Both the position numbers and the translations under genes were made by a program. From contig NZ_JASHJL010000007.1 of the NCBI RefSeq assembly GCF_030733205.1, positions 124,001 to 188,000 on the forward strand: a stretch of DNA of 64,000 nt. The letters are read 5' to 3'. Shown here piece by piece: positions 26,825-29,320 of this stretch. Below the pieces are notes generated by a model. The model saw nothing but the letters and a program-made list of their open reading frames with translations, made no database searches and was not told the DNA's origin. The stretch's first letter is position 1. Every line of letters begins with the position of its first letter. Source of the DNA: Mameliella sp. MMSF_3455 (GTDB lineage: Bacteria; Pseudomonadota; Alphaproteobacteria; Rhodobacterales; Rhodobacteraceae).

Positions 26825-27352
26825 ATGAAACGGCCGATCCTCATTCACCCCGACCCTCGCCTGAAAAAGGTCTGCGCCCCCGTCGACGATCTGTCAGACG
26901 ATCTGCGCGCCCTTTCGGATGACATGCTGGAAACCATGTATGCCGCGCCGGGCATCGGGTTGGCCGCGCCGCAGATCGGTATCCTGTCGCGGCTGATCGT
27001 GCTGGATTGCGCGAAAAAGGACGACGGGGACGAGGCACGCCCCCTGGTCATGTTCAACCCGCAGGTGGTGGCCAGCAGCGATGAATGCAACGTCTACGAG
27101 GAAGGCTGCCTGTCGATCCCCGACCAGTATGCCGATGTCGAACGACCCAAGGTGGTAGACGTTGAATGGCTTGACCGCGACGGCAAGCTGCAGCGCGAAA
27201 CCTTCGACGGGCTCTGGGCCACCTGTGTCCAGCACGAGATCGACCACCTCGACGGCAAGCTGTTCATCGACTACCTGAAACCGCTCCGGCGGCAGATGAT
27301 CACCCGCAAGATGGTCAAGCTCAAGAAAGAGCGGGCGCGGGAAAAGGCGTGA
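26825..27352 (+). CDS. def: Peptide deformylase 1
   Basis: Removes the formyl group from nascent protein N-termini. All three motifs are intact: GIGLAAPQ (43-50), EGCLS with metal ligand Cys95, and HEIDH with His137, Glu138 and His141. It is 175 aa with a basic C-terminal helix (KLKKERAREK), which in this family contacts the ribosome. First of four overlapping genes def-def-def-fmt, so it is the presumed housekeeping copy. Confidence 0.96.
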   Translation: MKRPILIHPDPRLKKVCAPVDDLSDDLRALSDDMLETMYAAPGIGLAAPQIGILSRLIVLDCAKKDDGDEARPLVMFNPQVVASSDECNVYEEGCLSIPDQYADVERPKVVDVEWLDRDGKLQRETFDGLWATCVQHEIDHLDGKLFIDYLKPLRRQMITRKMVKLKKERAREKA

Positions 27353-27852
27353 GCATTCTTCCGATCCTGAAATGGCCCGACCCGCGCCTGGCCCAGCCCT
27401 GTGCCCCGGTCCAGGAGCCCGCCGCACTCGAGGCGCTGGTGACGGACATGTTCGAAACCATGTACGATGCGCCCGGTCGTGGCCTTGCCGCGCCCCAGGT
27501 CGGCGTAATGCAGCGATTCTTTGTCATGGACGCGGGCTGGAAAGAGGGCGACATGACCCCGCTCGTCTGCATCAACCCGGCGATCCTGTCGGCCTCTGAC
27601 GAGCAGGCGGTGTCAACAGAGGGCTGCCTCTCCGTTCCCGGCGTGACCGCGGAGGTGACCCGCCCTGCGACGATCACGCTTGCCTTCACAGATCTTACGG
27701 GCACGGCGCAGCGACTGACCCTGACCGGGTCAGAGGCGACGATCGCCCAACATGAATACGACCATCTCGACGGGGTGTTGCATTTCGACCGGCTGGACCC
27801 GGCCGGGCGCGATGCGCTCCTGGCGGCCTACGAAGCGGGGCAGGACGCATGA
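27349..27852 (+). CDS. def: Peptide deformylase 2
   Basis: Second deformylase paralogue, 167 aa, starting at GTG 27349 and overlapping def1 by 4 bp. Motifs are complete for catalysis (EGCLS with Cys93; QHEYDH with His135, Glu136, His139), and motif 1 reads GRGLAAPQ with Arg in place of the usual Ile/Val. It lacks the basic ribosome-binding tail of def1. Probably active; perhaps with different substrate or target range. Confidence 0.93.
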   Translation: MSILPILKWPDPRLAQPCAPVQEPAALEALVTDMFETMYDAPGRGLAAPQVGVMQRFFVMDAGWKEGDMTPLVCINPAILSASDEQAVSTEGCLSVPGVTAEVTRPATITLAFTDLTGTAQRLTLTGSEATIAQHEYDHLDGVLHFDRLDPAGRDALLAAYEAGQDA

Positions 27853-28343
27853 GCGTACGCCCTTTCGTCCCATGGCCCGACAAGCGCCTGCGCACCGCCG
27901 CCGCCCCGGTCGAGCAGATCACCGACGAGATCCGTGCCATCTGGGAGGACATGATCGACACGATGGAGGCCATGCCCGGCGTCGGCCTTGCCGCGCCACA
28001 GATCGGCGTGATGTTGCGGCTTGCGGTGGTCGATGCCTCTGACGAACGTGGCAAACCCCTGCGCATGGCCAACCCCGAGATCCTGCACGCCTCCGTCGAG
28101 TTCCGGGACCATGACGAGGCCAGCCCCAACTTGCCCGGTGTGCACGCGAAGATCAGCCGTCCGCGCGCCGTGACCGTCACCTATACCGACCCGCAGGGCA
28201 TGAAGGTGCGCAAGGATCTGGTCGGTCTCTGGGCCACTTCGGTCCAGCACCAGATCGACCACCTGAACGGGCGGATGTATTTCGACCGGCTCAGCAAGAT
28301 GAAACGCGACATGCTCTTGCGCAAGGCCCGCAAACGCGGCTGA
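27849..28343 (+). CDS. Peptide deformylase-like protein 3, probably inactive
   Basis: Third paralogue, 164 aa, overlapping def2 by 4 bp. Motif 1 GVGLAAPQ is kept, but motif 2 reads EASPN (metal ligand Cys replaced by Ser92) and motif 3 reads HQIDH (catalytic Glu replaced by Gln135). By the known mechanism it should bind metal poorly and not hydrolyse formyl groups. The reading frame is intact and a basic tail (RKARKRG) resembles def1, so it is conserved protein rather than debris. A regulatory or ribosome-docking role is possible but unproven. Confidence 0.9.
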
Positions 28344-28408: not shown

Positions 28409-29320
28409 ATGCGCGTTGTCTTCATGGGCACCCCCGATTTCTCTGTCCCGGTCCTCGACGCGCTGCATGCGGCGGGCCATGACATCGCCTGCGTCTATTG
28501 CCAGCCACCGCGTCCCGCCGGACGTGGCAAGAAGGACCGCCCCACCCCGGTGCATCAGCGCGCCGAGGCACTGGGCCTGCCGGTCCGTCATCCCGAAAGG
28601 CTGAAATCGCCCGAGGACCAGGCCGCATTCGCCGAGTTGAACGCCGACTTGGCGGTTGTTGTCGCCTACGGGTTGATCCTGCCGCAGCCGGTGTTGGATG
28701 CGCCGAAACTGGGCTGCCTGAATATCCATGCCTCCCTGCTGCCCCGCTGGCGCGGTGCGGCCCCGATCCACCGCGCGATCATGGCCGGAGATGCCGAAAC
28801 CGGCGTCTGCATCATGCAGATGGAGGCCGGCCTCGACACCGGCCCGGTGCTGCTGCGCGAGGCCACGCCCATCGGTGCCACGGAGACGACCGGCGAATTG
28901 CACGACCGGCTCAGCCAGATGGGTGCGCGGCTCATCACCCAAGCGCTCGACCGGATCGACGACCTCGTGCCCGAACCCCAGCCCGAGGAGGGCGTCACCT
29001 ATGCCGACAAGATCGACAAGGCCGAGGCCGCCGTAGACTGGACGCGCCCCGCGGAAGAGATCTCGCGCCAGGTCCGCGGACTTGCGCCCTTTCCCGGCGC
29101 CTGGACCACGCACAAGGGGGACCGGATAAAGCTGCTGGGCGCCGAACCGGCAGACGGGCAGGGCGCGCCGGGCGTGCTGCTGGACGATTGCTTTGCCGTG
29201 GCTTGCGGAACCGGCGCCCTGCGCATCAGCCGCGCGCAACGGGCAGGCAAGGGCGCGCAGGACGCGGCAACCTTTCTGAACGGTTTTCCACTGCCCAAGG
29301 GCACACATCTGGGCGGCTGA
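28409..29320 (+). CDS. fmt: Methionyl-tRNA formyltransferase
   Basis: Formylates the initiator Met-tRNA using 10-formyltetrahydrofolate. The 303-aa protein shows the N-terminal [14 protein letters not shown], the catalytic [17 protein letters not shown] loop (His107 region) and the C-terminal OB domain. It lies 65 bp downstream of the three deformylases, so formylation and deformylation are encoded together. Confidence 0.97.

Follow-up and report, generated by a model that had tools for sequence, protein, structure and literature searches.

The closest well-described relative of the gene considered here is the Escherichia coli peptide deformylase Def, a type 1B member of the PF01327 family. 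In passages of Lamberioux et al. 2025 (PMC12690207), this peptide deformylase (PDF) contacts uL22 via L149, K150, R153 (which bonds to E52 of uL22) and K157, and 23S rRNA via K160 and R163, while passages of PMC8712518 describe the C-terminal helix of PDF as binding L22, in competition with methionine aminopeptidase (MAP). For the Salmonella enzyme, passages of PMC7683392 report that Cys90 is involved in binding the metal and needed for activity, that overexpressed C90S is of no help in a zinc-stress test, and that replacing Cys130 by Ser costs about half of the activity. Type 3 PDFs are, in passages of PMC12690207 and PMC5591237, PDF homologues in which motif residues are substituted and activity is weak or absent, and comprise inactive accessory forms in S. 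aureus and S. pneumoniae as well as archaeal and trypanosomatid forms; motif-deviant PDFs can be active, as exemplified by T. brucei type 3 (Lamberioux et al., PMC12690207). Where passages of PMC12690207 tie type 3 to altered motifs I and II, those of PMC5591237 speak of changes in one or several motifs.

PDF genes are also known to cluster. According to passages of Lamberioux et al. 2025 (PMC12690207), PDF genes are clustered in 98.1% of Rhodobacterales reference species, with three such genes in 62.5%, and the rationale for this clustering is termed elusive; the clusters described have the same arrangement as the def1-def2-def3 cluster discussed below. The abstract, sections 6-7 and further passages of that paper make no mention of catalytic residues missing from the third copy. 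Our literature search, with supplements and most subscription papers outside its scope, likewise turned up, among the matches listed, no account of a dead third PDF copy shared by a whole lineage, and no report on expression or essentiality of this gene was recognized among the matches listed (supplements again outside the scope). Thus, having found no such report, we take the family-wide dead third copy to be apparently new, whereas clusters and inactive accessory PDFs were already known.

The window analyzed here, 64,000 nucleotides of Mameliella sp. MMSF_3455 (contig NZ_JASHJL010000007.1), carries three def genes ahead of fmt, with all genes of the cluster on the + strand and a 4-nt overlap at both def1/def2 and def2/def3. 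The first, def1 (26825..27352), is a canonical PDF by its motifs EGCLS and HEIDH and its basic tail, and is presumably the housekeeping enzyme; def2 (27349..27852) is a PDF with intact catalytic motifs that lacks the basic tail, evolves fast and is often missing; def3 (27849..28343) encodes a PDF-fold, probable pseudo-deformylase of 164 aa; and fmt, encoding methionyl-tRNA formyltransferase, lies 3′ of def3 at 28409..29320. An earlier note on this DNA had described three overlapping def genes preceding fmt, of which the third was intact but read EASPN for EGCLS and HQIDH for HEIDH while keeping GVGLAAPQ and a basic tail, and all of this is borne out. The note passed over Pro93, Asn94 and Ser131 of def3 and the lack of a basic tail in def2.

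The genome of the window holds exactly three PF01327 matches, all inside the def cluster, with bit scores of 179 (def1), 171 (def2) and 142.6 (def3, residues 4-153), against a cut-off of 22.8. As def3 also passes the TIGR00079 equivalog cut-off (135.6 against 103.95 bits), automatic annotation can be expected to label it peptide deformylase, which is one enzyme too many; NF001159 likewise accepts it above cut-off despite the missing metal ligand and catalytic Glu. We regard def3 as a PDF-fold member that departs from two defining motifs, for which "peptide deformylase" should not be assumed as function. It shares with E. coli Def the fold, the motif-I Gly and Gln residues, the His residues of HxxDH, a helical C-terminus with basic docking positions, and the fmt neighborhood, and differs in having Ser for the metal Cys, Gln for Glu, Pro for Leu, Asn for Ser and Ser for a second Cys; it is expected to be inactive. 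Compared to type 3 PDFs, def3 is changed in motifs II and III and mostly keeps motif I, so that the two wordings disagree on it, the broad one in passages of PMC5591237 being able to include it. Type 3 C-termini vary in length in the latter passages, whereas the basic tail of def3 is conserved, and def3, unlike type 3, sits in a cluster with def1 and occurs nearly throughout the family as sampled.

We collected def3 loci in two samples, the first being the window and the best 80 of 452 loci, which biases it to close relatives (the nearest named relatives, among these best 80 of 452, are two Mameliella records with 96% identity), and the second being 90 genomes of the family with one place each, made up of 30 loci and 60 regions picked among the matches listed. 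In the first sample, motif II reads E[AG]SP[NC] and motif III QHQ[IV]DH in 81/81 loci, with S92, P93, Q135 and S131 each present in 81/81. The second sample gave a def3 open reading frame in 84/90 cases, with S92, P93 and Q135 in 84/84 and S131 in 83/84; the six misses are pattern matches outside PDF genes, and five of the genomes concerned have def3 elsewhere, the exception being G318. Pooled, the samples comprise 165 def3 loci, or 160 distinct proteins (a few loci, the window included, occur in both), of which all 165 carry E[AG]SP[NC]...QHQ[IVL]DH and none a canonical motif II or III. Internal stops are found in 0/165, in loci that were collected as open frames, such that broken copies would escape this count.

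The remodeling is centered on motif II (codons E90-A91-S92-P93-N94, 28116..28130, + strand) and motif III (S131-V-Q-H-Q135-I-D-H-L139, 28239..28265, + strand). Throughout the 165 loci, the motif II consensus EGCxS with its metal-ligand Cys is replaced by E[AG]SP[NC], and the HExDH consensus of motif III with its catalytic Glu by HQ[IVL]DH, and the additional changes of Leu to Pro93, Ser to Asn94 and a second Cys to Ser131 are fixed or nearly so. Asp137 is invariant, and so are both His residues of motif III, a pair that could still serve a metal or new chemistry. The motif I consensus G-x-G-x-A-A-x-Q (GVGLAAPQ in the window) is retained, with both Gly and the Gln in 165/165; its Ala-Ala pair is present in only 127/165, one Ala being Gly in the other 38, so that part of the def3 pocket appears looser (sequences labeled def1 have Ala-Ala in 78/79 and 80/85 cases in the first and second samples, respectively). 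A comparison of 81 def3 with 79 def1 sequences gives 18 positions that reach at least 90% conservation within each set but differ between the two; of these, A91, S92, P93, N94, L95, S131, Q135 and H88 belong to the active site or its immediate surroundings, H88 being presumably part of the S1′ pocket by E. coli numbering. Mean entropy within the motif shell (def3 residues 44-51, 88-96 and 127-139) is 0.23 in the 81 def3 sequences, compared to 0.77 elsewhere, and 0.08 compared to 0.82 in the 79 def1 sequences. As judged from these alignments, the def3 pocket is conserved in a new form, unlike what free decay would leave, with a shell looser than that of def1.

In PDF, Glu133 is the general base, and the backbone NH of Leu91 and Gln50 take part in the oxyanion hole, for which Pro93 at the Leu position would leave no backbone NH. 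We take S131 to be the equivalent of Salmonella Cys130, based on that protein having only two cysteines and on the presumed alignment. With Ser at both Cys sites, the Glu lost and Pro93 in place, deformylase activity is unlikely. Overall, we consider that deformylase catalysis has very probably been lost from def3, the metal-binding Cys being published as required (passages of PMC7683392).

What def3 retains, besides its fold, is the basic C-terminal helix (28290..28340, + strand), in which three conserved basic positions correspond to ribosome contacts of E. coli PDF. When tail positions are matched to E. coli by assumed numbering offsets, the equivalents of K150, K157 and K160 are each Lys or Arg in 165/165 def3 loci. 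The contact positions are basic in def3 and def1, while def2 retains none of them consistently, and median net tail charges are +8 for def1 (79 sequences), −1 for def2 (45) and +7 for def3 (81). The equivalent of R153 is, however, Met in 151, Ile in 8 and Arg in 6 of the 165 loci (def1 likewise has Met or Leu), such that docking of def3 may differ from that of the E. coli enzyme, and the equivalent of R163 frequently falls past the def3 C-terminal end. The suggestion that this copy may bind the ribosome is supported indirectly, by the conserved equivalents of K150, K157 and K160.

An AlphaFold2 model of def3 (62 aligned sequences) has a mean pLDDT of 93 and a pTM of 0.88, and the 50 PDB matches listed for it are all PDFs, with TM scores (query) of 0.84-0.93, for example 0.93 with an rmsd of 1.3 for 1lru_C, and about 0.9 for E. 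coli PDF.

We hypothesize, with about even confidence, that def3 encodes a pseudo-deformylase of ancient origin whose docking site would be the exit tunnel of the ribosome, where it would bind or gate without catalysis, the kept contact positions in the tail being the main ground for this ribosomal reading. By sequence, this PDF paralogue is without the metal-ligand Cys and catalytic Glu and has Pro at the canonical Leu, in a new pocket that is conserved, and it retains the fold, the motif-I Gly and Gln residues, the motif-III His pair and basic positions that in PDF serve docking near uL22. Def3, whose gene shares a cluster with that of Def1, could then occupy the PDF site at the exit tunnel without catalysis, where it would compete with or gate Def1, and perhaps also methionine aminopeptidase; in an alternative mode, it might briefly hold nascent N-termini. 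The outcome in either case would be a tuning of the timing of N-terminal processing. Counted against this reading is that 11/390 genomes manage without def3.

Arx1 and EBP1, which are not known to have peptidase activity, may offer the nearest parallel. Both have the MetAP fold and are found at the tunnel exit in eukaryotes (passages of PMC10118133), and they resemble the proposed Def3 in being homologues of an N-terminal-processing enzyme sited at the exit tunnel, although their fold and domain of life are different, making this a likeness of working and not of family. In a more specific version, which we consider rather unlikely, Def3 would dock at the PDF site of the ribosome and use its remodeled pocket to read formyl-Met N-termini without cutting them, thereby gating Def1 and methionine aminopeptidase or passing uncleaved formyl-Met proteins to degradation; as part of this same unlikely reading, Def3 would be the founding member of a class of bacterial pseudo-enzymes at the exit tunnel, as a putative counterpart of Arx1/EBP1.

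The gene layout allows a different role, namely that def3 encodes a subunit without catalysis that stabilizes Def1 (or Def2) or acts on it allosterically, and whose output is matched by translational coupling. Among 79 of the 81 first-sample loci that show an upstream def gene, 57 overlap it by 4 nt, which would suit such coupling. The 84 clusters read comprise 45 of the form def1-def2-def3-fmt, 34 of the form def1-def3-fmt and 2 of the form def1-def2-def3, the remainder being 2 with a second copy labeled def1 and 1 that is truncated at the end of the region read, and the 34/84 without def2 show that def3 is retained where def2 is missing, which would suit a partner of Def1. Type 1 bacterial PDFs are, however, mostly monomeric, and the features that def3 conserves are the tail and the pocket, and we regard a subunit role as improbable.

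It is similarly doubtful that def3 still encodes an enzyme, a hydrolase whose chemistry or substrate has changed and which relies on His134 and His138 together with Ser92, Asn94 and Gln135, possibly with a metal that binds weakly. Such an enzyme would account for a motif shell conserved in new form with both His and Asp137 invariant, and there is precedent for activity in motif-deviant PDFs such as the T. brucei type 3 form (passages of PMC12690207), but it would have to function with metal ligand and catalytic Glu both lost, when Cys90 is required in Salmonella (passages of PMC7683392). Pro93 would moreover eliminate a backbone NH with a role in the mechanism of PDF.

Returning to def3 as a putative pseudo-deformylase at the exit tunnel, we assessed its distribution in 390 genomes that were sampled from the order and all belong to the Rhodobacteraceae. 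Of these, 380/390 contain the HQxDH pattern, compared to 8/390, by a hand count, for the pattern reversed. Both pattern matches in G318 lie outside PDFs, and this genome has a single PDF, such that at most 379/390 genomes have def3, seen directly in 89 of these 379 and assigned in the other 290 by the pattern together with at least two PF01327 matches. The 11/390 genomes without def3 are thus G318 and ten without the pattern, of which eight have one PDF and two have def1 and def2, all with canonical motifs; none of the 11 has three PDFs. In three genomes of one genus with sizes of 2.5-2.7 Mb (G063, G210 and G326), there is a single canonical PDF, both accessory copies having presumably been lost. 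By a hand tally, 9 genomes have one PF01327 match, 148 have two, 5 have four and, by subtraction, 228 have three. As the two-copy clusters read are def1-def3 (34), apart from the two def1 and def2 genomes, we infer that def2 is missing from about 155/390 genomes, compared to 11/390 for def3. A probable pseudo-enzyme beside def1 in up to 379/390 genomes makes the reason for PDF clustering testable, as well as the possible existence of a non-catalytic regulator of bacterial N-terminal processing at the exit tunnel.

Outside the family, we used a DNA pattern one codon longer (QHQxDH), which is blind to pseudo-PDFs with other substitutions, in a class and a phylum sample that overlap. It occurs in 5/5 family and 5/380 non-family genomes of the class sample, and in 15/15 family and 4/284 non-family genomes of the phylum sample, and all nine non-family matches in these 380 and 284 genomes lie in reading frames that are not PDFs. 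Plasmid or phage copies were considered and set aside: P0003 matches 1010 plasmid and 156 phage records, one of them at >60% identity, from Pseudorhodobacter, a genus also represented among the def3 loci (best 80 of 452).

Selection was estimated from dN/dS by the Nei-Gojobori method with our own script, on pairs that are non-independent and in many cases have high dS. At dS <0.6, <1.0 and <1.5, median values are 0.239, 0.208 and 0.184 for def1, 0.297, 0.227 and 0.191 for def3, and 0.446, 0.449 and 0.390 for def2, respectively, and the closest pairs, of the window with loci L004 and L005, give 0.06 and 0.04 for def3. Across the 44 loci with all three copies, dN of def3 is lower than that of def2 in 946/946 pairs, and lower than that of def1 in 39% of pairs. 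On these codon comparisons, def3 is under purifying selection and constrained nearly like def1, with the motif-intact def2 as the loose copy. By sequence, this amounts to a natural three-way split, with motifs and tail in def1, motifs only in def2 and tail only in def3. That def3 is a duplicate in decay or evolving neutrally, which persists by chance or just as a cluster spacer, is a reading to which we give next to no credence, since, for all that it is missing in 11/390 genomes, there are 0/165 internal stops (among open frames only), the signature is fixed family-wide, and dN/dS, at 0.04-0.06 in comparisons of the window with L004 and L005, is overall similar to that of def1. Signature fixation and dN/dS together lead us to reject a pseudogene. 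The earlier note had inferred a pseudo-enzyme and named a decaying allele as one outcome that would undo this; the pseudo-enzyme is well supported by fixed changes (Ser and Gln in 165/165, orthologues keeping Cys and Glu in 0/165), by purifying selection, and by the published finding that the Salmonella enzyme needs its metal Cys (passages of PMC7683392).

We note two separate observations on the second copy. Having intact motifs, no basic tail, fast evolution and an inferred absence from many genomes, def2 is perhaps a ribosome-independent deformylase, or on its way out. In one locus (L152, genome G010), the second PDF of the cluster, where def2 would stand, has HKLDH with Lys in place of the catalytic Glu, which was thus lost separately in this one lineage.

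The origin of def3 was examined in a FastTree tree of 115 sequences, comprising 33 labeled def1, 22 def2 and 33 def3 (a random subset of loci) and 27 PDFs of other families (from the 30 best in other alphaproteobacterial families, three of which the motif filter missed). The other families split from the Rhodobacteraceae PDFs with a support of 0.993. Within the latter, def3 forms one clade (33/33, support 1.0) on a stem of 0.68 and def2 another (22/22, 0.996), while def1 forms no clean clade (28/33) and the sister relation of def2 and def3 is weak (0.695). Rapid change along the stem and slow evolution thereafter are in keeping with a functional change in def3 early in the family.

Finally, the codons for Ser92 are AGY in 125/165 and TCN in 40/165 def3 loci, with, by a rough count on a FastTree tree, an estimated ~22 changes between the two classes, compared to TCN in 163/163 and 0 class switches for the motif-II Ser of def1. 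This suggests that intermediates were tolerated in def3 for a time, and we rejected the switching as clean proof of selection because, with def1 at 0 switches as yardstick, it cuts both ways. Variants with EASPC, found in L017, L050 and three second-sample loci, have a Cys at the usual Asn94, two positions past that of the former ligand.
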